Shown piece by piece: positions 2,654-49,414 of a stretch of 64,000 nucleotides of DNA (the first letter of the stretch is position 1; each line of letters begins with the position of its first letter). The DNA is from Anaerolineae bacterium (GTDB lineage: Bacteria > Chloroflexota > Anaerolineae > Anaerolineales > Anaerolineaceae): contig JABLWW010000004.1 in assembly GCA_013178295.1 (NCBI GenBank), forward strand, positions 1 through 64,000. The letters run 5' to 3'. Below the pieces are notes generated by a model. That model did no database searches and was not told the origin of the DNA. It was given only the letters and a program-made list of their open reading frames with translations. The position numbers were made by a program, and so were the translations under genes.

Positions 2654-3901
2654 TCACGCCTTTGGTAAAATCGCGCGGCAGATGCGCAAAAAATTACCCC
2701 CCATAATCTTATAAATATCCTCTTCCGAAAAACCCTGGCTCATCAGAGCATCGGTCAACTGCACAATTCCCGAAGCATCTATGGGGGTAACCACCGTGCC
2801 ATCAAAATCACTGCCAAATGCAACACAATCCACACCTGCCAGGTCAGCGGTGTAGCGCATCGCCTTGGCAGCCGCCTCCACGCTGGTTTCGCCAATAGCG
2901 GTATCAAATATAGCAATGCCAATCACACCCCCATACGCCGCAATACGCTTGATATGATCGTCTTTGAGATTACGTTGATTATCGCATGTGCCGCGCACGC
3001 CGGTGTGTGAGACCACCACAGGAACCTTATCGGTGATATCCAGGACATCATCTATCGTCTGCTCCGAAGCGTGCGCCAGGTCGAGGATCATATTTTTTGC
3101 CATCACCCGATGCACTACCTCTTCCCCAAACGGCGTCAAACCGCCTTTTTCCACCCCATGTGCCGAACCACAGGCTTCGTTGTCAAAGAAATGGCTCAAC
3201 CCAAACATGCGAAATCCTGCATCATAGAGCAGATCAAGGTTCGCCACCCGCCCTTCAAGCGCGTGCGCACCCTCCAGCGCAGGGAAACCGCCCACAATGA
3301 CAGGATTCTGTGCGCGGCGTTGTAGCAGTTCGTCAATATCCTGCTGGTTGCGAATTAACATAAATTGCCTGCCGCGCGCATTGGCGGCAAACCACTCCAG
3401 CTTTTCGGCTTGGTACAATGCACGCCGCAGCGGGCTTTTCCAGGTGCGGATTGGCCAACCCTGCACAATTGTCAACGGCACCAGCAAGTCACCGCTATCA
3501 GCCCGATTGCTTTCAAAGTTCTGCCCGGCTGGCACCCTGGTAACCACCCCAAAGACCTGCATGGCAACGTTCCCTTCCACCAAACGCGGTAGGTCAACAT
3601 GACCATACCCATGCCGCATAAGGATATTTCTGTTCCACAACAACGTATCGGCATGCAAATCCACAATGAATAACCTGCTGTGCAGCGCCGCTGCTTCCCC
3701 CCGCACAGAATAATACTTTTTCTTCCCGCGGGTTTTATTCATCGACCGCTCGACAATCTGTGAAAGCACTGCCGGGGTCAGGACAAAAATGATCAACCCT
3801 AACGCCACCAGCCACATAAACAGACGCTGATCAGGCACAGCGTACCCCGCAAAACACAGCACACATAAGGCGATAAGCGCGCTCAAATAGAATCTGCGCA
3901 T
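2654..3901 (-). CDS. Membrane-anchored dipeptidase, peptidase family M19
   Basis: Protein of 415 residues. Two hydrophobic segments (about 5-22 and 28-47) anchor it, followed by an M19 renal-dipeptidase domain. Metal and active-site motifs are visible: HAD (H83, D85), EGAHALEG, LSHFFDNEACGS, DLAHAS, SHTG and GSDFDG. Family members hydrolyse dipeptides at a binuclear zinc site. The anchor suggests it acts at the cell surface. It is first in an operon with the YfcC carrier and EamA exporter, which fits release and transport of amino acids. The N-terminal anchor makes it longer than soluble members. Confidence 0.92.
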   Translation of the reverse strand: MRRFYLSALIALCVLCFAGYAVPDQRLFMWLVALGLIIFVLTPAVLSQIVERSMNKTRGKKKYYSVRGEAAALHSRLFIVDLHADTLLWNRNILMRHGYGHVDLPRLVEGNVAMQVFGVVTRVPAGQNFESNRADSGDLLVPLTIVQGWPIRTWKSPLRRALYQAEKLEWFAANARGRQFMLIRNQQDIDELLQRRAQNPVIVGGFPALEGAHALEGRVANLDLLYDAGFRMFGLSHFFDNEACGSAHGVEKGGLTPFGEEVVHRVMAKNMILDLAHASEQTIDDVLDITDKVPVVVSHTGVRGTCDNQRNLKDDHIKRIAAYGGVIGIAIFDTAIGETSVEAAAKAMRYTADLAGVDCVAFGSDFDGTVVTPIDASGIVQLTDALMSQGFSEEDIYKIMGGNFLRICRAILPKA

Positions 3902-4032
3902 CTGACCCTCTCAAAAGAATTTTTTTGTTAAGTATCGTCCAATCAACAAACCGGGTTCTTGCAGCCCGAGATGATTTCCGCCCAATGTCTGTTATGTGCT
4001 TTCATGAATTGCTGTGATTGTGTGTGATGCTC

Positions 4033-4869
4033 CTACTCCTCGTCTATAGGCGGCATAGGCGTATAACCAATGTCAGAGGGATGACAATCCTGCTGTTTAG
4101 GACACGCCATTGTAACCGGGTTGGGCCATGTGCCATTCCAACAAGGCTCCGGTCTCCATCCCCGATCATAATGCACCAGGCTTGACCATATTGTCGGCTG
4201 AGCAGAGGAGCTGACCGTAAAATGATACAGTGCCTCCCACAAGGGCGGCTGTACAAGCATGGCATGTGACAGGATGACATAGCCGACATTGCCGTTTTCA
4301 GGAGACGGAGCAAACTGCTGGGTAAGCCAGGGTGGACTGTTGCTGGTATCCTTCACCTGCAATTGCGCACCGGCAGGCACAGGTTGATTAAAGTTATAAG
4401 CAAACTGGCAAATTAGGAATTTACCGGCATATTCAACCCTACCGTTCACCATTTTTGCCCAAACGGCATTCGCCGGAGGTGCGGAAACATATTGCTGCAC
4501 AGCCGGAATGCCGCTACCGGTATCCGGAGTACACCAAAAGGTAACATCCCCCATTGAGGCTGCTGGTGCGGCTGGCGGTGTCCCTACCATAGGCATCTCT
4601 GGCAATGCAGCAGTCGGCAACCCGGTTGTCGAGGGGTCTTCTTGCACAATGGGCACCGGTAAAGTCGGCGTTTGCGGTTGCGGCGTGGCGGTGATAATCT
4701 TCTCTACAATTTCAGCAACCACAACCGTTTGCTCAACAAGCCGCGTCACCTCAACCTGGATAATCACCGGCGTCTGCGTCGGTTCAGCCGCTGCGGCTAT
4801 TCCACAGGCAGACAGAAGCATACTTAGCAACAATACAGCAAACACAATAAGTTTCAATTTTCTGATCAT
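4033..4869 (-). CDS. Putative lipoprotein of unknown function
   Basis: A 278-residue secreted protein. The ATG at 4869 gives a signal peptide ending in the lipobox LLSAC (C22). The longer frame from a TTG at 4968 would bury the signal and is rejected. A hydrophilic stretch rich in Val, Glu, Thr and Pro follows (VTRLVEQTVVVAEIVEKI), a stalk type common in Anaerolineae lipoproteins, then a Cys/Trp/Pro-rich globular region from about residue 100. I do not recognise the domain. It stands alone, 120 bases from the dipeptidase start and 114 from the glyQS stop. Confidence 0.7.
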   Translation of the reverse strand: MIRKLKLIVFAVLLLSMLLSACGIAAAAEPTQTPVIIQVEVTRLVEQTVVVAEIVEKIITATPQPQTPTLPVPIVQEDPSTTGLPTAALPEMPMVGTPPAAPAASMGDVTFWCTPDTGSGIPAVQQYVSAPPANAVWAKMVNGRVEYAGKFLICQFAYNFNQPVPAGAQLQVKDTSNSPPWLTQQFAPSPENGNVGYVILSHAMLVQPPLWEALYHFTVSSSAQPTIWSSLVHYDRGWRPEPCWNGTWPNPVTMACPKQQDCHPSDIGYTPMPPIDEE

Positions 4870-4983
4870 ATCACTCAACAAATCACATCCGAAGGAAATA
4901 TTGTTTGAGAAGTTTACTACTGTTACAGGGATAACACAAGGTGCGCACCCAACGCGCTGTCTTGCCAAAGACTTATGGCTTCT

Positions 4984-7900
4984 CTAGAACCCTTCCAGCT
5001 TGGAGAAATCTGCCACGCCCTGTGCAAGATCAGCGATACGCTGCAGCATACCCAGACGATTGGAGCGCAGTGCGGAATCTTCCGCCATCACCAGAACGGC
5101 ATCGAAGAAACGATTGATCACTGGAATGAGAGGCAAAAACACCGCAAAAAAGTCCTCCACACAACCGGGCTGCCGAGCCTGCTTTTCCGCATTGCAAAGC
5201 GCCTCAAAAAGCTTCTGCTCTTCTGCTTCTATCAACTTCTCTGGGCGAATCTCAAAATGTTCCTGAAAGTCTCGCGTAATACGCACACAACGAGCATAAG
5301 CCGGTAAGATGGAATTCCAGTCCTCCCGCAACACCCAAGCCGCAAGCGAGCGAACAGCACGCGCCGCACCAGCCGGATTGTGTGCCTGGGCAGCCAACAC
5401 CGCTTCAACCACATCATAGCGAAACCCCTGCTCAAGCAACAGGCTTTGCAAACGCCCAGCAATAAAATCAAAACACTCTGACAGCGCCTGAGGTGTGGCT
5501 TCCAGCGGCAGCATCTCGGCTGCCAGATGCAGGGCGCGACGCAGATCAAAGGGTATATCTCTGTCAATCAAAACCTGCACCACCCCAAAAGCTGCCCGCC
5601 GCAAAGCAAAGGGGTCGCGGGCGCCGCTGGGCGCAAGCCCGGCGGCGAACAGCCCCGCCAGCGAGTCGAGCCGGTCTGCCAGCCCCACATAGACCCCAGC
5701 CAGTGAAGCGGGGAGACGATCCCCGGCAAAGCGCGGCAGGTAATGTTCATAAATTGCATCGGCGACAGTCACCTCCTCTCCCGAATGCAATGCGTAATAA
5801 CGCCCCATTTCCCCCTGCAATGAGGTCATTTCGACCACCATGTGGCTGACCAGGTCAGCTTTGCACAGGTGGGCTGCCCGCAACGCAGCCTTCCGCTCCT
5901 CGCCAGCAAGACCATACACATCCGCCAGCTTTTCGACCAGCTGCTCAATCCGCTGTGTCTTATCCAGCATGGTGCCCAGCTTAACCTGAAACGTCAACGT
6001 GCCCAAACGCGGCAGAAGTTCTTCAAGCCTGTGTTTTAAGTCCTCAGCAATGAAAAAGGCAGCATCGGAAAAACGCGCCTCAATAACTTGCTGGTTGCCG
6101 TCCACCACCACATCCAGATGCTGGTCGCCGCCATTGCGCACAGCAATAAAATGGGGCAGAAGGTTGCCCTCTTCATCATATACCGGGAAATAACGCTGAT
6201 GTTTTTTCATCACGGAAACCAGCACCACCGGCGGCAGTTTTAGATGAGACGAATCAAAATTGCCCAACAATGCCGTCGGTGCTTCAACCAGCTGGTTAAT
6301 CTCGTCTAACAAATCCTCATCCAGCCTGGCTGCGGCGCCAACGCTCTGCAGCAGCTCTCTGACCTGCCGTTCTATGGTGTTGCGGCGTTCTCGCGGGTGC
6401 AGCAAAATTCCCTGTGTGCCAATCGCCTCAAAATATGCTGCAGGAGATGTCACACAGAGCTCTTGTGGGGTATTGAAACGAAGACCGCGCGTCAGGTTGC
6501 CAGATTGTAACCCAGCATACTCAAAGGGAATCACTGTCCCGCCAAAAAGCGCCAGCAACCAACGTATTGGACGCGAAAACGCCACGTTGCTTGCATTCCA
6601 GCGCATAGACTTGTCAAACTTCAAGCTGGCAATCAAAGCTGGGAGCGCCTCTGCCAGCACCTCCACAGCGGGTTTGCCGGGTTCATTGACCACCGCTGCC
6701 AAATACTCACCGCCATCCATCTCGCGGCGTTCCAACGCCTGCACATCCACCCCCCTGCTACGGGCAAAGCCAAGCGCCGCCTGGGTCGGCTGCCCCAAGG
6801 CATCAAAGGCACGGCTGACTGGCGGACCCTTGACAACTATTGTGCGGTCTGCCTGCTGTGCGGCAAGGTCTTTGACATACACCACAAGACGGCGCGGCGT
6901 CCCCAAGATATGCACCTCGCCGTACGTCAAATGCAGATTATCCAGCAACTGGGGTACTTTTTCTTCCAACTGGCGCAAAGCGCTTTGCAAATCCGCCGCT
7001 GGGAGCTCTTCGCTGCCGATCTCCAGCAAAAAATCTTGTGGGGCTGTCGATAGGGCAGTGTCCATCGCTGACACGCGTGAAACAGCAGCTCTTTGGGTTT
7101 CTGACGCTTCTTTTGTCAACCAGGGAAATCCCATCTGCTGGCGCTGAGCCAGGTATGCCTCAGCAGTGCGCCGTGATAAGTCGCGCATACGCGCAAACAG
7201 CGCCTGCCGCTCCGTTACACCAACTGCGCCGCGCGTATCGAGGATATTAAAGGTGTGCGAGCACTTGAGCACGTAATCATGTGCTGGGAGAACAAGCCCC
7301 TGTGCCAGCGCGTTTTCAGCCTCCTGCTCAAAGAGGTGATACATCTGCCGCACGCGGTCAACATCAGCAATCTCAAAATAATATTTGCTGTGCTCCTGCT
7401 CTGCCGTAAGATTAACATCCCCATAGGTGCGCCCAGCACCCCAGCGAATATCCCGAAAATTGCGCACCCGCTGCAACGGCATGGCAATGCGTTCCAGACC
7501 ATAGGTGATTTCAACCGACACCGGGTCTAAAACCACACCGCCAGCCTGCTGAAAATAGGTGAACTGGGTAATTTCCTGCCCATCCAGCCACACTTCCCAA
7601 CCCAGCCCCCATGCGCCCAGCGCAGGCGATTCCCAGTTATCCTCGACAAAACGAATATCATGCTGGCGCGGGTCAATCCCCAGCGCCAGCAGCGATTCCA
7701 AATACAGTTCCTGCGGGTTTCCAGGATCGGGCTTCAGGATCACCTGGAACTGATAATGTTGTTGCAGGCGGTTGGGGTTCTCTCCATATCTGCCATCGTC
7801 TGGGCGAATGGAAGGCTCCACATACCCCACATTCCAGGGCTCTGGGCCAAGAACGCGCAAAAAGGTAGCGGGGTTCATCGTCCCGGCACCCACTTGTGTA

Positions 7901-11707: not shown

Positions 11708-12363
11708 TTTTTCTCATTCCAGCCATGCTCGCCCAGCAGAGGCACAAAAGCCACGGGGAGAATCGTCTCATGGTGATACTGATCGGCTGCCACCCGCCGC
11801 CAGAGCTGCAAATCCTGATGATATCTGGCGCCCACCGGTATGACTAGCTTACCGCCAATATCAAGCTGATCCAATAACGGTTGGGGAACATACGGCGCAG
11901 CGGCAGTGACCAGGATACCCTGATAAGGCGCTGCATCAACCCAGCCCAGCGTACCATCTCCCACATGAACATGCACATTTTCAATACCAAGACGCGCAAA
12001 CACCAGACGTGCACGCTCAGCCAGAGATGGAATACGCTCAACAGTGTGTACCGTCTTTGCCAACATCGAGAGAATCGCCGCCTGATATCCCGACCCCGTC
12101 CCCACTTCAAGGACATTCTCATTCCCATGCAGATCAAGCGCCTCGGTCATTAACGCCACGATATAAGGCTGGGATATCGTCTGTCCCTCGCCAATTGGCA
12201 AAGGGTGATCCTCATACGCCTGTTCCAACTCTCGCGGTGAGACAAAAAAATGACGCGGAATCTGACGCATCGCGGTTAAAACACGCTGGTTACGTACCCC
12301 TCTTCGCTCAATTTGCGTAGCCACCATCTCCTGACGCAGCTTTTCAAATTCTTTGTCGTCCAT
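11686..12363 (-). CDS. pcm: Protein-L-isoaspartate O-methyltransferase
   Basis: A 225-residue cytosolic enzyme that methylates L-isoaspartyl residues in damaged proteins using S-adenosylmethionine. The N-terminal region RHFFVSP and IGEGQTISQPYIVALM are diagnostic. The SAM motif is VLEVGTGSGYQAAIL (around 85-99), and VTAAAPYVP is the post-motif. Length is normal for the family. It lies 79 bases after mutY on the same strand, so it could belong to the same damage-repair transcription unit. Confidence 0.95.
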   Translation of the reverse strand: MDDKEFEKLRQEMVATQIERRGVRNQRVLTAMRQIPRHFFVSPRELEQAYEDHPLPIGEGQTISQPYIVALMTEALDLHGNENVLEVGTGSGYQAAILSMLAKTVHTVERIPSLAERARLVFARLGIENVHVHVGDGTLGWVDAAPYQGILVTAAAPYVPQPLLDQLDIGGKLVIPVGARYHQDLQLWRRVAADQYHHETILPVAFVPLLGEHGWNEKKWQEIDF

Positions 12364-12442
12364 CCTACTAATAATATACCATCATCGTCAAGTCAGACGC
12401 ACAACCAGCCAGCCCTGCAAAGCCGCTGACACACAGGCAGCT

Positions 12443-13534
12443 TTAAACACAAGAACTTCTTGGAGCAACCAAGAGGCAATGCGCCAGACTTGTCGAAATC
12501 TGCCGATCAATTTTTCCCATTGGATAGTCTTCTAATTCACACGGAGTAACCCAGCGTATCTCGCTGGCTTCAATCGGGCGTGGTTCGCCAGCCACCAGAG
12601 AGCAGCAAAAGGCATGCAGTGTCACCTTAAAGTGGGAATAAGCATGACGATATACACCGACCTTTTCTCCGACTCTAATATCCGCCCCCAGCTCCTCGCG
12701 GATTTCACGCACCAGACTGGCAGTCAGTTCCTCACCTGGCTCCACTTTGCCGCCCGGAAACTCCCACAGTCCCCCCAGTAACCCGTTTTCAGGACGCCGC
12801 GCGATCAGCACCCTGCTATCCCGCGCAATAACTGCAGCACAAACCAAATAGTGTGGTACCTGCTTACGAGGCAAAAGAACAGGGCGCTGCTCCTGGATAC
12901 CAAGAGCCTTTGCCCGGCAAAGACCACCGAGCGGGCAAAGCTGACATTGGGGACGCTGAGAGCTGCACAAAGTGGCGCCAAGGTCCATCATTGCCTGGTT
13001 ATAATCGCCTGCCCTGCCAGTAGGTATATTTGCACGGGCGATTTCCCACAAACGTCTCTCCCCCTCTGGCAATTTAACAGGGATGTCCACATCAAATACT
13101 CGCGCAAGCACCCTGCGCACATTGGCATCTAGCGCAGCTTCATCTTGTCCAAAAGCGATTGAGAGTATTGCCCCAGCTGTATAAGCGCCAACGCCGGGTA
13201 AACGCCTCAGGGCACGAACATCAGCTGGGATTTCGCCACAATAATCACGCATCACCTGCCGGGCAGCACGATGAAAGTTCCGCGCCCGACCGTAATACCC
13301 CAGACCCTCCCAATACTTAAGAACCTCCTGCTCATCTGCCTGTGCCACATCCGCAAGCGTGGGAAAACGCTGCAGCCAGCGCTCAAAATAGGGAACGACC
13401 ACGTCAACTTGTGTCTGCTGCAACATGACTTCAGATACCCAAACCACATACGGGGTATGCGTTCCACGCCACGGCAGCTGGCGCGCGTTTTTCTCATACC
13501 ATGAGAGAAGCAACCGGGCAAACTCTGTTGGCAT
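12443..13534 (-). CDS. mutY: A/G-specific adenine glycosylase with intact Nudix box
   Basis: A 363-residue base-excision-repair enzyme that removes adenine opposite 8-oxoguanine. The HhH-GPD domain has E35 in EVMLQQTQV, the hairpin LPGVGAYTAG and catalytic D136 in LDANV. A [4Fe-4S] cluster is formed by C190-x6-C197-x2-C200-x5-C206. The C-terminal domain (about 225-345) has a complete Nudix box, G262-x5-E268-x7-REIREELGA; the corresponding domain of E. coli MutY lacks it. It follows the 100-residue unknown by 12 bases in the operon that starts at 14512. Confidence 0.95.
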   Translation of the reverse strand: MPTEFARLLLSWYEKNARQLPWRGTHTPYVVWVSEVMLQQTQVDVVVPYFERWLQRFPTLADVAQADEQEVLKYWEGLGYYGRARNFHRAARQVMRDYCGEIPADVRALRRLPGVGAYTAGAILSIAFGQDEAALDANVRRVLARVFDVDIPVKLPEGERRLWEIARANIPTGRAGDYNQAMMDLGATLCSSQRPQCQLCPLGGLCRAKALGIQEQRPVLLPRKQVPHYLVCAAVIARDSRVLIARRPENGLLGGLWEFPGGKVEPGEELTASLVREIREELGADIRVGEKVGVYRHAYSHFKVTLHAFCCSLVAGEPRPIEASEIRWVTPCELEDYPMGKIDRQISTSLAHCLLVAPRSSCV

Positions 13535-13546
13535 GACACAGGCAGA

Positions 13547-13849
13547 CTAAAACTGAAAACCGCCGCGCGCCCTGACGATTTTATAAGAGAAGTTATTGAC
13601 ATAATCCTGCAGACGGTTTTGCAGGCTTTGCCAATCCGAAGAGCGCAGAATTTCTTTAGCACGATATTCAGATGGAAGCAGTGCTCCTACCAGTATCTGC
13701 GGGCGCGCCCCATAGACAGTAGCCCATGCATCGCTCAGCTCAAAGCCTAAACGTTGAACACCCGGTATAAAATCACGCACGACAAATTCAAAGTATTCTT
13801 CTTCGCGTTCGGGCGCAATATCCCAGCTCATAATCAATTTAACGGTCAT
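13547..13849 (-). CDS. Conserved-looking protein of unknown function, 100 aa
   Basis: A small soluble protein without signal peptide or membrane segment. The sequence begins MTVKLIMSWDI and ends with basic and Phe residues. Its alternating pattern (strand, helix rich in Glu/Phe, strand, helix) resembles a dimeric alpha-beta barrel, but I cannot place it in a family. It sits three bases after the metallo-beta-lactamase-fold gene and 12 before mutY, on the same strand. That tight spacing supports it as a real gene. Confidence 0.7.
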   Translation of the reverse strand: MTVKLIMSWDIAPEREEEYFEFVVRDFIPGVQRLGFELSDAWATVYGARPQILVGALLPSEYRAKEILRSSDWQSLQNRLQDYVNNFSYKIVRARGGFQF

Positions 13850-13852
13850 GAC

Positions 13853-14512
13853 TTACCTCTCATCGCGCGGGTAATCCAGTACAACCACCCGTGTGTCCTC
13901 TGGCAACGAGCTAACCGTTTTAATTTTCAAAGCCGGCTGCGGTTCAACATCAGTCAATCCCATCTCCTTAAGAAACTTCCTTAAAGGCTCGAGATTAAGT
14001 TGAGATTCGGGCAGGGCATAATGCATGGGAATGACAATATTAGGCTCAATCAGACTAACAACTTCTGCAGCTTTGGCTGAATTCAAGCTATCTCCACCGC
14101 CCACCGGCACCAAGGCAATATGCACCGGGCCCAATGCTTCAACCTCTGCCTGTGTTAAAACGCGATTCAGCGCTCCCAGATGAGCAACTGTAATTCCAAG
14201 GTACTCAATCACACACAACAAGTTCGGTTGTTCATGATTGTTATTACGCTTCGAGGGCATCTGCGTCTGAATAGCAGTAATAAAAACACCGCCTATCTCG
14301 TATTCCCCCGGCCCTGTAATCAAATAAGGCTCACTTTTGACAGCTGCAATGAAATTATGGCCGGGCTTATCGTGGCTGATGGTAACAATATCCGCTTTGA
14401 GGCGCAATGGCTTAAGCCCCACCTCTCTGTGATCAAACGGATCGGTCACGATTGTTTTCGTGTCGTGATTAGAAATTCTAAAACATGAATGCCCGTACCA
14501 GGTAATTTCCAT
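13853..14512 (-). CDS. Metallo-beta-lactamase-fold protein (UlaG-like)
   Basis: A 219-residue soluble protein of the Lactamase_B_3/UlaG-like group. WYGHSCF, TDPFDH, PGEYEIGG and MHYALP match the fold. The usual H-x-H-x-D-H metal motif is replaced by SHDKPGHN, so metal binding or catalysis may be changed. GGAGG stands just upstream of the ATG, and TTGTCA-17-TATAAT lies 23 bases further. It is the first gene of an operon running through the 100-residue unknown and mutY to pcm. The substrate is unknown. Confidence 0.82.
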   Translation of the reverse strand: MEITWYGHSCFRISNHDTKTIVTDPFDHREVGLKPLRLKADIVTISHDKPGHNFIAAVKSEPYLITGPGEYEIGGVFITAIQTQMPSKRNNNHEQPNLLCVIEYLGITVAHLGALNRVLTQAEVEALGPVHIALVPVGGGDSLNSAKAAEVVSLIEPNIVIPMHYALPESQLNLEPLRKFLKEMGLTDVEPQPALKIKTVSSLPEDTRVVVLDYPRDER

Positions 14513-44193: not shown

Positions 44194-44946
44194 CTAAACG
44201 CCAATCGTGATGTGATTATCGAGCAATGCAGCGCGCACCGCACTGGCAACCGCCAGGGCGTTGGGGGAATCCCCATGAATACAGAGTGTATCAATACCGA
44301 CCCGGCATCGCTCGCCTTCGCGTGTCATCATCTCAATTCCATTTTGCACCAGATTGAGCGCCTGCGCAGCTGCCCGCAGTGGGTCATCAATGACGCTTCC
44401 CGGCTGGCGGCGCGACATCAGTGTTCCATCCGGGTTGTAGCCGCGCTCTGGGAAACCTTCATTGGCAACCTGCAGACCCTGTTCAACACCGGCTTCAATC
44501 AGGGCAGAACCAGCCAGTCCAACCAGAATCAGCCCGGTATCAAAGCGTGCCACCGCACGCGCCACCGCACGCGCCAGCACAACATCCTGTGCCGCCTGGT
44601 TATAAAGAGCGCCGTGTGGTTTCACATGTGTCAGGCTAATGCCTGCGGCACACGCAAAGCCAGCCAAAGCGGATACCTGATAAAGAACAAACGCTTCCAC
44701 CTCTTCGGGTGTCAAATCCATCGCCCGCCTGCCAAAGCCCTGCAGATCAGGGTAGCCGGGGTGTGCACCCACCCGCACCCCGAATGCCGCAGCCAGTCTC
44801 ACCGTTTTTTCCATGACCAGTGGATCGCCAGCGTGCATCCCGCAGGCAATATTGACCGAAGAGACCAGCGGGATTAATTCACTATCCCTCCCCAGAGTGT
44901 AACGCCCAAATCCCTCTCCCATATCGCAGTTAATATCCACTCTCAA
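44194..44946 (-). CDS. pxpA: 5-oxoprolinase subunit A
   Basis: About 250 residues of the LamB/YcsF family, the hydrolase subunit of ATP-dependent 5-oxoprolinase, which opens pyroglutamate to glutamate. VDINCDMGEGFG, NIACGMHAGDP, GAHPGYPDLQGFGRR, HVKPHGALYN and HGDSP are family hallmarks. The TTG at 44946 is preferred because AAGGAGG lies eight bases upstream; a GTG-type start at 44970 would include the Shine-Dalgarno. Its partners pxpB and pxpC are 3 kb away on the same strand, beyond the GlpA-SdhBCD genes. Confidence 0.93.
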   Translation of the reverse strand: MRVDINCDMGEGFGRYTLGRDSELIPLVSSVNIACGMHAGDPLVMEKTVRLAAAFGVRVGAHPGYPDLQGFGRRAMDLTPEEVEAFVLYQVSALAGFACAAGISLTHVKPHGALYNQAAQDVVLARAVARAVARFDTGLILVGLAGSALIEAGVEQGLQVANEGFPERGYNPDGTLMSRRQPGSVIDDPLRAAAQALNLVQNGIEMMTREGERCRVGIDTLCIHGDSPNALAVASAVRAALLDNHITIGV

Positions 44947-45047
44947 AGCACACCTCCTTCTAACACCCAAACTCCCAAATCAGCTCGATTATTGATTATA
45001 ATAGACGCCAACTGTTGACAAAATCCCCTGTGAAAAAGAGAAACCTT

Positions 45048-46223
45048 ATGGACAAACCCAAAGCAGTCATCATTGGGGCTGGTTTCACCGGTTGTGCAAC
45101 GGCGCATGACCTGGCATTGCGCGGTTTTGACGTCACCGTGGTGGAGCGAGGCCCAATCGCAAACGGCACTTCAGGGCGGACACACGGCTTGTTGCACAGC
45201 GGGGGGCGCTACGCTGTGGATGACCAGGAATCGGCTGTCGAATGTATCGAGGAGAATCTTCTGCTACGCGGATTGGTGGCTGAATGTCTGGAGCAAAACG
45301 GTGGTCTCTTTGTTGCACTGGACGAAAGCGACCTGGAATACGCCCGACGCTGGGTACAAAGCTGTGAGCGCTGCAACATCCCGGTGGAGCAGGTAGATGT
45401 AAAACAAGCCCTTGCCTGGGAGCCCAACTTAACCTCAAAGATTCTTGCAGCATATACCGTTCCCGATGCTACTTTTGACCCTTTGCGGCTGGCACTGACA
45501 TTTGCAGCAACAGCCCAGACAAATGGGGCGCGTTTCAGACTTTTTACTGAGGTAGAGGGTCTTATAGAGCGCAATGGGGCAATTCGGGGTGTGCGTTGTC
45601 AGGAACGCACAACGGGCAAATCAAGCGAGCTATACGCCGATTGTGTCATCAATGCCACCGGTGCATGGGCAGGCAAAATTGCCCAAATGGCTGGGGATGC
45701 AACCATTGTGGTTAAACCTACACCAGGCGTGATGGTCGCCTATGACCAGCGGCTGTGCAATCGAGTCATCAACCGCCTGAATGAGCCTGGTGATGGCGAT
45801 ATCATCGTCCCTCAGCGCCGCATGGTCGTTATTGGCACCACCTCGTTTGAGGTGGACGAGGTAGATTACATTCCTGTCTTTGAAGACCAGGTGCAGATGA
45901 TGCGGGAATGCGCCATCCAGCTGATACCCGCCGTTGCCGCAACACGCCAGCGCGGAGCGTTTATGGCAGCCCGTCCATTGATTGGCTCTTCAGCTTCAGG
46001 ACGGAGCATCGCGCGCACTTTCAAGTGCTTTGACCACCAGGAAACCCACGGGATTGGCGGGCTGGTGACCATCACAGGGGGAAAAGCCACCACCTTGCGG
46101 GCAATGGCAGAAAAAACTGCCGACACCGTCTGCGCCAAGCTGGGCATTACAGCACCTTGTCAGACCAGAGAGTACCCCCTGCGCTCTTACCGTGAGTTTC
46201 GGGGAAGTGACGCCTATCAGTAA
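45048..46223 (+). CDS. GlpA-like FAD-dependent glycerol-3-phosphate dehydrogenase
   Basis: A 391-residue flavoprotein of the DAO family, closest to the catalytic subunit A of anaerobic glycerol-3-phosphate dehydrogenase. The FAD motif GAGFTGCATAHDLALRG, GRTHGLLHSGGRYAV, VPDATFDPLRL, GTTSFEVDEVDYI and ITGGKATTLRAMAE align with E. coli GlpA. It stops before the C-terminal Cys-rich BFD-like [2Fe-2S] domain, about 150 residues shorter. It lacks the SdhA/FrdA motifs. SdhB, SdhC and SdhD homologues follow within 10, overlapping and 28 bases, so electrons probably go through them. Confidence 0.88.
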   Translation: MDKPKAVIIGAGFTGCATAHDLALRGFDVTVVERGPIANGTSGRTHGLLHSGGRYAVDDQESAVECIEENLLLRGLVAECLEQNGGLFVALDESDLEYARRWVQSCERCNIPVEQVDVKQALAWEPNLTSKILAAYTVPDATFDPLRLALTFAATAQTNGARFRLFTEVEGLIERNGAIRGVRCQERTTGKSSELYADCVINATGAWAGKIAQMAGDATIVVKPTPGVMVAYDQRLCNRVINRLNEPGDGDIIVPQRRMVVIGTTSFEVDEVDYIPVFEDQVQMMRECAIQLIPAVAATRQRGAFMAARPLIGSSASGRSIARTFKCFDHQETHGIGGLVTITGGKATTLRAMAEKTADTVCAKLGITAPCQTREYPLRSYREFRGSDAYQ

Positions 46224-46232
46224 GGAGTTCTC

Positions 46233-46985
46233 ATGAGCGAAAAATGGTCACTCCACATTGAAGTCCAACGGCAAAAGGGGAAAGAGCAACCGCATTTTGA
46301 CCGCTTTGATCTTGAAATCTCGCCAGAAGCTACCGTTTTGGACGCGGTAGAGATGATCTGGGCATTCAAAGACCGTTCCCTATGCTTTGGTCATGCCTGT
46401 CACCATTCTACATGCGGCGCGTGTGGAATGCGTGTTAATGGTGTAGAAAAACTCACCTGCATCACCCTGATTAGCGAGGTAACCCAAAACGGTGGCACGC
46501 TACGCTTACAACCCTTGCGTAACCTGCCGGTGATTAGCGATCTGGTCGTTGACCTGACTCCTCTCTACCATCGAATGGCAGAGGTGAAACACCCTTCGGT
46601 GCACCCAGTTGAGGAAAACGAGGGTGTTGCCAGTCAGCAAATCGCACAAGCAGGAAAGAGCAACAATCCCTATACACGCCTGGCAGATTGTATTGAGTGC
46701 GGTCTGTGCATCAGCGTATGCCCGGCAGCCATGACCTCGCCCGCGTATATCGGTCCGGCTGTGCTGGCAGGCGCCCAGCTGGCAGTAGTTATGGATGAGC
46801 ACGTTTGCGCCATCGTAGATACCCAGAACGGCGTCTGGCGCTGCCATAGCGCCTACGAATGCAGTGAGGTTTGCCCTTCCCACGTGCAGCCAGCCCAGCG
46901 TATCATGCAGCTGCGTCGGCATCTCCTTTCTCAACGCATCCGCCGCTTTTTCGGTCTGCAATCCCTTCATCAGAGGAAACAATGA
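46233..46985 (+). CDS. sdhB: Succinate dehydrogenase/fumarate reductase-type iron-sulfur subunit
   Basis: A 250-residue electron-transfer protein. The plant-type [2Fe-2S] site is C56-x4-C61-G-x-C64-x11-C76. The ferredoxin domain has CIECGLCISVCP for [4Fe-4S] and CHSAYECSEVCPSHVQP for the third cluster. Length and order are those of SdhB/FrdB. It is preceded by the GlpA-like gene (TAAGGAG Shine-Dalgarno in the ten-base gap) and overlaps sdhC by four bases. No SdhA gene is present, so it probably accepts electrons from the GlpA-like protein. Confidence 0.93.
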   Translation: MSEKWSLHIEVQRQKGKEQPHFDRFDLEISPEATVLDAVEMIWAFKDRSLCFGHACHHSTCGACGMRVNGVEKLTCITLISEVTQNGGTLRLQPLRNLPVISDLVVDLTPLYHRMAEVKHPSVHPVEENEGVASQQIAQAGKSNNPYTRLADCIECGLCISVCPAAMTSPAYIGPAVLAGAQLAVVMDEHVCAIVDTQNGVWRCHSAYECSEVCPSHVQPAQRIMQLRRHLLSQRIRRFFGLQSLHQRKQ

Positions 46986-47368
46986 ACAGAATATTTCAAA
47001 AACCAGGCAACGCAATCCAGTGGTTTGACCCGCGCGGGCGGCAGTTAGGCTATCTGGCTTTTATCCTCAATCGCATCACCGGCATGGGTCTGGCACTATA
47101 TCTGCTTCTTCACCTCATCATGCTGGGCAAACTGGCACAAGGTCCCCAAGCTTATAACAGCTTCATCGAGACTGTGCATCATCCCGTTTTTATTTTTGGC
47201 GAGCTACTGGTTATCTTCGCCGCTCTGATCCATGGTCTGAACGGTCTTCGCATCATCCTGACCAGTTTTGGCATAGGCGTCGAGAAACATAAACCCCTTT
47301 TCACCGTGCTGATGATCGCAGCGCTGGTGAGCGGCGTATATTTTGCGGCACGCATGATCGCCAGGTAA
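46982..47368 (+). CDS. sdhC: Succinate dehydrogenase-type cytochrome b subunit (SdhC)
   Basis: A 128-residue membrane anchor with three hydrophobic spans. RITGMGLALYLLLHL in the first span and the candidate heme His in ALIHGLNGLRIIL are typical of SdhC. ATG 46982 overlaps the sdhB stop (ATGA) and has GAGG upstream. With SdhD it should bind heme b and quinone and pass electrons from the iron-sulfur subunit. Confidence 0.9.
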   Translation: MNRIFQKPGNAIQWFDPRGRQLGYLAFILNRITGMGLALYLLLHLIMLGKLAQGPQAYNSFIETVHHPVFIFGELLVIFAALIHGLNGLRIILTSFGIGVEKHKPLFTVLMIAALVSGVYFAARMIAR

Positions 47369-47396
47369 ACACCACACGCGAAAGGATTAGGCAATA

Positions 47397-47765
47397 ATGA
47401 TGAATAGCAAACAGATGGCAATGGGTGAAGGCGGCGGATTGTGGTTGCTTAAAGCGTTCAGCGGTGCGCTGCTGGTGATCATTCTGGCAATTCACCTGGT
47501 TGTGAATCACCTTGTTTATGAGAGTGGCGTGATGAGCTGGCAGGATGTCGTCATATACTACCAAAACCCCATCATTGTAATCCTCGAAGCGGTCTTTCTG
47601 GTTTCGGTCGTTGCACATGCCCTGCTGGGGCTGCGCGGGATTCTGCTCGATTTGCAGCCATCCAACGCCATACTGGTATGGATTAACCGTCTGTCTTTGG
47701 CAATCGGGATCGTTGCCGTTCTATACGGACTCTGGCTGCTGCTGACCGTGGCATCTTTTGGCTAG
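47397..47765 (+). CDS. sdhD: Succinate dehydrogenase-type membrane anchor (SdhD)
   Basis: A 122-residue protein with three hydrophobic spans. The first carries IHLVVNHLVYE and the second VVAHALLGLRGILLD, which resembles the heme-ligand and quinone-site region of SdhC/SdhD proteins. ATG codons at 47397 and 47400 are both usable. It ends the plus-strand operon, and its stop overlaps that of convergent pxpC by four bases. Confidence 0.85.
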   Translation: MMNSKQMAMGEGGGLWLLKAFSGALLVIILAIHLVVNHLVYESGVMSWQDVVIYYQNPIIVILEAVFLVSVVAHALLGLRGILLDLQPSNAILVWINRLSLAIGIVAVLYGLWLLLTVASFG

Positions 47766-48739
47766 AAAGCATAAATCCCTGCATCCTCGTCCTCAGCATT
47801 TTCGATCGCACCCAGACACTGCAACATTTGACGGTAGCGCGCCTGTGCAGCTTCTACAGAGGTCGGCGTAAAGCGTATCCTGGCATCTCCACCAGGCACG
47901 CACTGCGCCAGCAGGGGCAAATCTGCGCTCACCACAACCGCAATCTTTGCATACCCGCCGCTTGTTGGGCATTCGCGCATCATAATGATTGGCTGACCAC
48001 TAGAGGGAACTTGTACAGCGCCAGCAACCAACCCATCGGTAACAATATCTGCCCCTCTGCTGTGTGCAACCGCAGCCCCCTGCAAACGGTAGCCCATGCG
48101 ATCAGAAGCAGCGCTGACCAGGTACTCTGAAGATAAAAACGTGGTTATTCCCTGCGCGTCAAAGTACTCCTGCTGAGGACCAAGGACCACCTCAATCAGC
48201 GGGGTAACGCTATAGGCTGGGCGCTTATGTTCTGGCAGCCTGCGCCCGGCAAGTGTCAAAGCCAACGAAGAGGGATGCAGACTGTACAGCACGTCCCCCG
48301 CTTGCAGCGTTCTACCTTCAAATCCACCAAAACCGCCGCGCAGATATGTAGAACGCGAACCCAATACAGGTTCAACCGCAATCCCTCCTGCCAATGCAAG
48401 ATATATCCAGCAGCCAAAGGGCTGACGGTGAAACGCAATTTCCCAGCCAGATCGAACAACCAATGCAGTCCACAGCGGCGCTGGCTCTCCACGAATGAAA
48501 AGGTCAAAACCGCTGCCGGTTACCGCGATCAGACAATCCTGAAGGGCGACCAGGACAGGAGCCTGAATACCTATCTCCAGCACAGCGGCATCGTCAGCAT
48601 TGCCCACAAGCCGATTTGCAACCCGCATAGCAAACGTGTCCATTGCGCCCGCCACCGGGATACCAAAGCGTTGATAGCCAAAACGCCCTCCATCTTGAAC
48701 AGTGGCGAGAAAACCAGGCTGCGTTATCTGAAGGCACAT
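47762..48739 (-). CDS. pxpC: 5-oxoprolinase subunit C
   Basis: A 325-residue protein of the KipA/biotin-dependent-carboxyltransferase-like family, which with PxpB forms the ATP-using part of 5-oxoprolinase. FLATVQDGGRFGYQRFGIPVAG-type opening, MDTFAMRVANRLVGN, GSRSTYLRGGFGG, DRMGYRLQG and the ECPTSGGYAKIA block are family signatures. ATG 48739 follows the pxpB stop directly, so the two are coupled. Confidence 0.94.
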   Translation of the reverse strand: MCLQITQPGFLATVQDGGRFGYQRFGIPVAGAMDTFAMRVANRLVGNADDAAVLEIGIQAPVLVALQDCLIAVTGSGFDLFIRGEPAPLWTALVVRSGWEIAFHRQPFGCWIYLALAGGIAVEPVLGSRSTYLRGGFGGFEGRTLQAGDVLYSLHPSSLALTLAGRRLPEHKRPAYSVTPLIEVVLGPQQEYFDAQGITTFLSSEYLVSAASDRMGYRLQGAAVAHSRGADIVTDGLVAGAVQVPSSGQPIIMMRECPTSGGYAKIAVVVSADLPLLAQCVPGGDARIRFTPTSVEAAQARYRQMLQCLGAIENAEDEDAGIYAF

Positions 48740-49414
48740 TCAAACGTCCTCTGTCACAACTGGCACAAAGCGCACCCGATCGCCGGGCGTCAGCAAACAG
48801 GGAGGGTTTAGAGTGGGATCAAAGAGTTTAAGCGGTGTATAACCAATCAAACGCCAACCGCCTGGCGAATCCACCGGATAAACACCCGTCTGACTGCCTG
48901 CAATGCCAACTGACCCCGCTGGCACATGGATGCGCGGTGTTTCCAAACGCGGCGTGGCAATCGCCGGATTCATCCCTCCCAGATAGGGGAAACCCGGCGT
49001 GAACCCCATCATAAAAACGGTGTATTCAGCGCCGCTGTGCAGAGCAATGACCTCCTCCACAGAAAGGTGGTTATGTTGGGCGACAAACGGCAGATCAGCC
49101 CCCCGCTCACCGCCATATATGACGGGTATCTCCACCAACCTGGACGGCAGTTCTTTGGCATCATCACACAAGGCAAGCAGATGTTGAAGCTGTGTCAAAA
49201 GCGTCGTGTAGTCTGTCTCCAGTAAATTGTAGTGAACCAGCAGCGAACAATATGCAGGGACAGTCTCAATCACACCAGGCAACTGCCGCCGCTGTACTTC
49301 CCGGTCAAACGCATGCACCCGACGGTTGAGAGCCAGTTCAATCTGCTCACCAAATACCACAACAATTGCCGAATCACCGACTGGCTTAAAGAAAGGAAAC
49401 TGCCCTTCCGCCAT
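48740..49414 (-). CDS. pxpB: 5-oxoprolinase subunit B
   Basis: A 224-residue protein of the KipI/allophanate-hydrolase-subunit-1 family. GDSAIVVVFGEQIELALN at the start, VIYGGERGADLPFVA, FMMGFTPGFPYLGGM, VPAGSVGIAGSQTGVYPVDSPGGW-type region and FDPTLNPPCLLTPGDRVRF are typical. It pairs with PxpC, whose start touches its stop codon. A second role as histidine-kinase inhibitor is known for B. subtilis KipI, but the neighbourhood supports 5-oxoprolinase. Confidence 0.94.
   Translation of the reverse strand: MAEGQFPFFKPVGDSAIVVVFGEQIELALNRRVHAFDREVQRRQLPGVIETVPAYCSLLVHYNLLETDYTTLLTQLQHLLALCDDAKELPSRLVEIPVIYGGERGADLPFVAQHNHLSVEEVIALHSGAEYTVFMMGFTPGFPYLGGMNPAIATPRLETPRIHVPAGSVGIAGSQTGVYPVDSPGGWRLIGYTPLKLFDPTLNPPCLLTPGDRVRFVPVVTEDV

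Follow-up and report, generated by a model that had tools for sequence, protein, structure and literature searches.

The closest described counterpart of the gene arrangement reported here stems from Thermofilum-related archaea in which, according to the passages of a 2025 paper in Commun Biol that deal with them (PMC11962113), glpA is followed by putative sdhB, sdhC and sdhD counterparts; the complex is drawn in Fig. 9b of that paper. Based on phylogeny and gene order, these passages propose archaeal GlpA-SdhBCD to be a glycerol-3-phosphate (G3P) dehydrogenase whose subunits of succinate dehydrogenase (SDH) type serve for anchoring and electron transfer. Canonical bacterial glpA is said there to co-occur consistently with glpB and glpC. 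A passage of a further paper notes that bacterial GlpA/GlpD sequences placed in an archaeal tree branch might be transfers from archaea (PMC5059525). We analysed a stretch of 64,000 nucleotides from an Anaerolineae bacterium (assembly GCA_013178295.1, contig JABLWW010000004.1, positions 1 to 64,000), in the following referred to as the window, which harbours a cassette of glpA-like, sdhB-like, sdhC-like and sdhD-like genes (Table 1). As judged from sequence, these four genes very probably encode a membrane-bound, quinone-linked G3P dehydrogenase in which a GlpA head is seated on an SdhBCD module.

The likeness of this cassette to the Thermofilum arrangement, as the quoted passages present it, is one of gene order (glpA, then the sdhB, sdhC and sdhD genes); while the latter is archaeal, the cassette belongs to a bacterial group and is often preceded by glpK and dhaKL. 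With E. coli GlpABC it has in common a homologous FAD (flavin adenine dinucleotide) subunit in which the presumed G3P-site residues are identical. In contrast to that system, however, its GlpA is devoid of the C-terminal iron-sulfur (Fe-S) domain, and no GlpB above the cut-off is present in the genome. Complex II is resembled with respect to SdhB, SdhC and SdhD, including the cluster cysteines and histidines aligned to H84 of E. coli SdhC and H71 of E. coli SdhD, but differs in that here there is no SdhA match, the flavoprotein belongs to the DAO family and SdhB falls into a clade of its own with a fourth cysteine at the 2Fe-2S site. Finally, Sulfolobus acidocaldarius GlpA-CoxG, as described in PMC11962113, is similar in that a protein resembling a truncated GlpA has a different membrane partner, which is a CoxG-like protein there and not SdhBCD. 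Among the open-licence papers in PubMed Central that our searches listed, a scope which makes this a weak negative, we found no bacterial GlpA-SdhBCD in print, and PMC11962113 is the only listed one to describe the layout. The novelty implied by the initial annotation of the window does therefore not extend to the architecture, already published for archaea in the passages cited above. As far as our literature searches show, the new part is a broad group of bacteria in which the layout is associated with a glycerol operon, and this group runs counter to the quoted statement of PMC11962113 on bacterial glpA. It provides a clear, testable example of how a respiratory complex can exchange its dehydrogenase head while retaining electron wire and membrane anchor.

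Open reading frames and family matches bear out the four tightly packed plus-strand genes which the initial annotation had described. Of the spacing given there, the 4-base overlap between sdhB and sdhC (ATGA) and the 28 bases between sdhC and sdhD are correct, while the gap between glpA and sdhB amounts to 9 instead of 10 bases. In the profile search the flavoprotein scores 445 bits against TIGR03377 (GlpA), the match comprising profile positions 2-381 of 530. This score stays below the cut-off of 552.8, which is to be expected for a GlpA without its C-terminal part, and indeed the match ends ahead of the bfd-like Fe-S domain, whose absence had been correctly recognised. SdhB clearly exceeds the cut-off of TIGR00384 (174 versus 88 bits), as does SdhC that of TIGR02970 (56.7 versus 52.3 bits; 53.6 bits against PF01127). 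The SdhD-like protein reaches only 22.7 bits against TIGR02968 (cut-off 41.8) but surpasses that of PF01127 (29.1 versus 25.8 bits), a family whose cut-off both anchors thus exceed, in agreement with their annotation as SdhC/SdhD-type proteins. The E-values, together with the fact that other genomes conserve this gene order, exclude a chance match.

This conservation emerged from the genome search for the four-gene order that had been suggested along with the annotation. Of 400 genomes from the phylum, 92 contain relatives of GlpA (E up to 1e-70), and the matches split into two groups, namely 23 matches of at least 376 bits (22 genomes, among them that of the window) and weaker matches of at most 316 bits, all but one of which lie in open frames of more than 515 amino acids. 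Of 396 genomes from the class, 59 were found to contain relatives of GlpA (E up to 1e-100), 13 of them already included in the phylum set. Besides the window, 68 loci were fetched, 22 from the phylum set and 46 from the class set. The order glpA-sdhB-sdhC-sdhD was found by script in 51 of these 68 loci, and in 49 of the 59 for which more than 1.9 kb of downstream sequence is available. The script read the same strand only, while SdhA and pxp matches were rechecked on both strands. One further locus (L070), listed as out of order by the script, possesses all four genes as judged by coordinates. The remaining 16 comprise eight loci of family f5 with a lone glpA, six cut by contig ends, L075 and L175 (Table 1).

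Trees of GlpA and SdhB, as had likewise been proposed, were built from 36 and 39 rows, respectively; SdhA-linked SdhB sequences were included from 14 genomes, those of the other genomes being left out. The short GlpA sequences constitute a single clade (23 rows, support 100/100). The partner SdhB sequences, too, form one clade (23 rows, support 100/99), separate from the SdhA-linked SdhB sequences, which stem from 14 of these genomes; the placement of E. coli FrdB was flagged as a long branch. GlpA and its partner SdhB are inherited together: over 14 genomes, pairwise distances of GlpA correlate with those of the partner SdhB at r 0.916, a value reached in 0 of 5000 permutations, versus r 0.231 for SdhA-linked SdhB (88 of 5000). 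The initial annotation had spoken of a loss of the C-terminal GlpA domain. A loss in this group is plausible, yet the root of the tree is unsure.

In the proposed mechanism, the GlpA-like subunit would oxidise sn-glycerol-3-phosphate to dihydroxyacetone phosphate with concomitant reduction of its FAD. From there, the electrons would pass to SdhB instead of travelling via a C-terminal Fe-S domain of GlpA to GlpB and GlpC. SdhB would relay them across its 2Fe-2S, 4Fe-4S and 3Fe-4S clusters to the SdhC/SdhD anchor which, probably equipped with two b hemes, would deliver them to (mena)quinone. The assembly would hence represent a complex II chassis in which the dehydrogenase head has been swapped, working in glycerol breakdown. 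We infer that the subunits form a single complex, that this complex is specific for G3P, that it contains two hemes and that quinone is its acceptor.

With regard to the substrate, R54, Y55, R309, R323 and K346 of the GlpA-like protein align to R54, Y55, R317, R332 and K354 of E. coli GlpD, and E. coli GlpA matches at these positions, too. We take them to be G3P-binding residues on the basis of structural work on GlpD; a search of open-licence PubMed Central papers for the roles of these residues returned no paper. All five are kept in 69 of 69 GlpA rows. The structure was addressed by modelling a fused read-through GlpA-SdhB chain with 40 alignment rows (mean predicted local distance difference test score, pLDDT, 84.6; predicted template modelling score, pTM, 0.69), which gave good domains, and the structure searches performed with this model covered mainly its GlpA part; SdhB relatives do not figure among the rows listed, to which no weight is attached. 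By Z, E. coli GlpD ranks first (2r45_A, Z 41.3, root-mean-square deviation 2.8, 387 aligned residues), the alignment extending to model residue 473 inside the SdhB part, while the first Foldseek row is 9a53_A, a GlpD-containing model.

The gene context in relatives lends real weight to the substrate hypothesis. On the same strand, glpK (glycerol kinase) is the first labelled gene upstream in 48 of the 68 loci, or in 42 of the 56 whose upstream sequence exceeds 2.3 kb; in 43 of the 68 it lies less than 700 bases upstream. Further upstream, dhaK (dihydroxyacetone kinase) is found in 34 of 68 loci; the names dhaK, dhaL and dhaM-ptsI were taken from a single locus. At L055 the order is dhaK, dhaL, glpK, glpA, sdhB, sdhC, sdhD, followed by a gene of the DhaM-PtsI fusion type. 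The protein encoded directly after sdhD there, a fusion of DhaM-HPr-PtsI type (Table 1), suggests dihydroxyacetone phosphorylation driven by the phosphotransferase system.

Oxidation of another substrate instead of G3P, e.g. of a 2-hydroxyacid or an amino acid as by other proteins of the DAO fold, appears improbable for the complex. It is true that the DAO family is broad, that enzymes acting on glycine, sarcosine and hydroxyglutarate also occur in the structural match lists, and that 5-oxoprolinase genes adjoin the cassette in the window. Yet, beside the invariance of the presumed site and the best structural match by Z being GlpD, the two GlpA models rank far first for the flavoprotein with 445 and 364 bits, compared to 89 bits for the next family, and the operon of many relatives contains glpK and dhaKL. 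The initial annotation had considered G3P or another hydroxyacid. Owing to the glpK and dhaKL neighbours in relatives and the intact presumed site, G3P is favoured over another hydroxyacid.

Cofactor residues are intact in the partner subunits as well. The cluster positions of SdhB, aligned to C55, C60, D63, C75, C149, C152, C155, C159, C206, C212 and C216 of E. coli SdhB, make up all three motifs that had been annotated, and the cysteines are complete in 22 of 22 rows; in a larger set they are kept in 56-58 of 58, both misses being gaps. At the 2Fe-2S site SdhB of this group carries a fourth cysteine where 14 of 16 compared sequences of SDH and fumarate reductase have an aspartate. H44 and H84 of SdhC are each conserved in 18 of 18 rows, as are H33, H38 and H74 of SdhD in 19 of 19; the larger set gives 53-54 of 54 rows for the anchor histidines, the single miss being a gap. 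Two of these positions are occupied by H84 of E. coli SdhC and H71 of E. coli SdhD, presumably the heme ligands of that enzyme. The SdhC/SdhD anchor probably binds heme, namely two b hemes. A MenG/UbiE-type methyltransferase scores above the cut-off in the window's genome and, likewise, in all 22 genomes of that search, which fits quinone synthesis.

Alternatively, GlpA and SdhB might constitute a soluble or peripheral unit using another acceptor, with SdhC and SdhD being accessory or shared with succinate dehydrogenase. This idea draws on family f5, in three genomes of which GlpA and SdhB are unlinked and a single SdhC/D pair per genome is present, on f5 SdhB, which lacks the C-terminal tail found in other partner SdhBs, and on L075, where glpA and sdhB occur without the anchors. 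We nevertheless regard it as quite improbable, as sdhC and sdhD adjoin sdhB in most loci and the anchor histidines are near-invariant. In two of the three f5 genomes (G262 and G037) the SdhC/D pair is located near SdhA; in the third (G349) it is found outside L109 on contig 7, with about 7 kb separating it from the lone SdhB, and not beside SdhA. Though unlinked, f5 GlpA and f5 SdhB both adjoin family f12 in the trees. It is conceivable, though doubtful, that complex II serves as an exchangeable chassis, i.e. a di-heme SdhBCD module taking different heads with G3P dehydrogenase as its only occupant here, and that the f5 GlpA-SdhB pair may dock on the genome's one SdhC/D pair so that two dehydrogenases would share one anchor.

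The window's genome (3.95 Mb, 97.8% complete, listed contamination 4.95%) contains no match to the SdhA profile TIGR01812 at E 0.001, while the same search of control genomes gave a match in 13 of 14, above the cut-off in 6; at this completeness, a missing stretch is unlikely though conceivable. Outside the window, PF00890 matches either consist of short N-terminal pieces or reach at most positions 181 and 206 of 414. The whole genome encodes one SdhB and two Sdh_cyt proteins, all within the cassette, and accordingly no second complex II was found. GlpB is absent above the cut-off from this genome; GlpC was not searched over the genome, and the genes downstream of glpA are sdhBCD. A separate SdhA co-varying with sdhBCD, which the initial annotation had named as the finding that would speak against a GlpA-like protein in the SdhA slot, is thus not encountered: the genome lacks an SdhA match, and SdhA of relatives has its own, separately related SdhB. 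Genomes with and without a separate SDH offer natural comparisons. Although SdhB, SdhC and SdhD are true members of the complex II family and 21 of 22 searched genomes have an SdhA match (19 above the cut-off), the view that they belong to an ordinary succinate dehydrogenase with SdhA elsewhere and glpA as a chance neighbour is largely refuted and most improbable, because the window's genome is the one without such a match, SdhA of relatives pairs with an SdhB of a different clade and the cassette order recurs in the loci described above. An SDH with a distant SdhA was rejected for the lack of an SdhA match in the genome and the separate SdhB clades. Likewise rejected were an assembly artefact, as the same cassette is present in many genomes, and contamination by a foreign contig, as the trees place GlpA and SdhB among sequences from the family and order to which this genome belongs.

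Several observations weigh against a GlpA-SdhBCD complex acting as the G3P dehydrogenase of this organism. Within the window the cassette is not linked to glpK but situated among 5-oxoprolinase genes (pxpA / pxpCB), so that the operon evidence rests on the relatives; the glycerol kinase of this genome is encoded away from the cassette on contig 21. Contig 10 encodes a GlpD-like protein, hence GlpA-SdhBCD is not the sole candidate G3P dehydrogenase. GlpB scores above the cut-off in 4 of 22 genomes. In the eight f5 loci the short GlpA stands alone, and three f5 genomes (G262, G037, G349) have the matching SdhB elsewhere together with one SdhC/D pair each, which implies that dedicated anchors are dispensable in some cases. 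When three odd genomes are omitted, the distance correlations are 0.961 for the partner SdhB versus 0.658 for SdhA-linked SdhB, and this rise of the control correlation means that part of the signal is shared ancestry. Finally, the fused model with its pTM of 0.69 says nothing firm on the GlpA-SdhB interface.

Table 1. Coordinates and composition of the cassette, its neighbours and selected related loci (L, locus; G, genome; f5, family). The first five rows refer to the window.
Feature	Position	Strand	Remarks
glpA-like gene	45048..46223	+	ATG 45048, stop at 46223; FAD protein of 391 amino acids, DAO fold
sdhB-like gene	46233..46985	+	iron-sulfur subunit; 11 cluster cysteines for 2Fe-2S, 4Fe-4S, 3Fe-4S
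sdhC-like gene	46982..47368	+	membrane anchor; presumed heme ligands H44, H84
sdhD-like gene	47397..47765	+	membrane anchor; presumed heme ligands H33 or H38, plus H74
5-oxoprolinase genes	44194-44970 and 47762-49414	minus	pxpA on one side, pxpC-pxpB on the other side of the cassette
L055, gene after sdhD	2821-5334	minus	838 amino acids, DhaM-HPr-PtsI type fusion
L062 (G289:C187)	11811-14420	minus	SdhA-like and SdhB-like parts in a single open frame
L082 (G177)	5929-7143	minus	further short GlpA, 404 amino acids, 281 bits
Lone-glpA loci, family f5			L064, L066, L068, L159 (only 552 bases downstream), L162, L168, L169, L170
f5 loci of the three genomes with unlinked SdhB			lone GlpA L064, L066, L068; matching SdhB L107, L108, L109
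Loci cut by contig ends			L027, L056, L065, L138, L158, L173
L075			glpA-sdhB only
L175			outlier of 530 amino acids without sdhB

From its flanking pxp genes, the cassette looks like an insertion into a pxp cluster; a pxp match is present in 0 of the 68 related loci, considering both strands of the fetched sequences, many of which are short. A scan of genome contigs with GlpA gave a single locus, L018, with a GlpA of 558 amino acids. A match to the family chlor_Arch_YYY (TIGR03662) in a relative gives no more than a hint of Chloroflexota. The further short GlpA of L082 falls outside the clade; a search of its surroundings, which did not extend to GlpB, gave no SdhB match. With both strands of the fetched loci considered, SdhA matches are limited to L062 (1 of 68), where about 4.4 kb separate the match from the GlpA-SdhBCD genes downstream of it, and the open frame uniting SdhA-like and SdhB-like parts at this locus is perhaps a natural SdhA-SdhB fusion. 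GlpB and GlpC are, again on both strands, confined to L071 (G399:C214), where a GlpA-GlpB-GlpC set is located immediately upstream of the GlpA-SdhBCD set in the same orientation.

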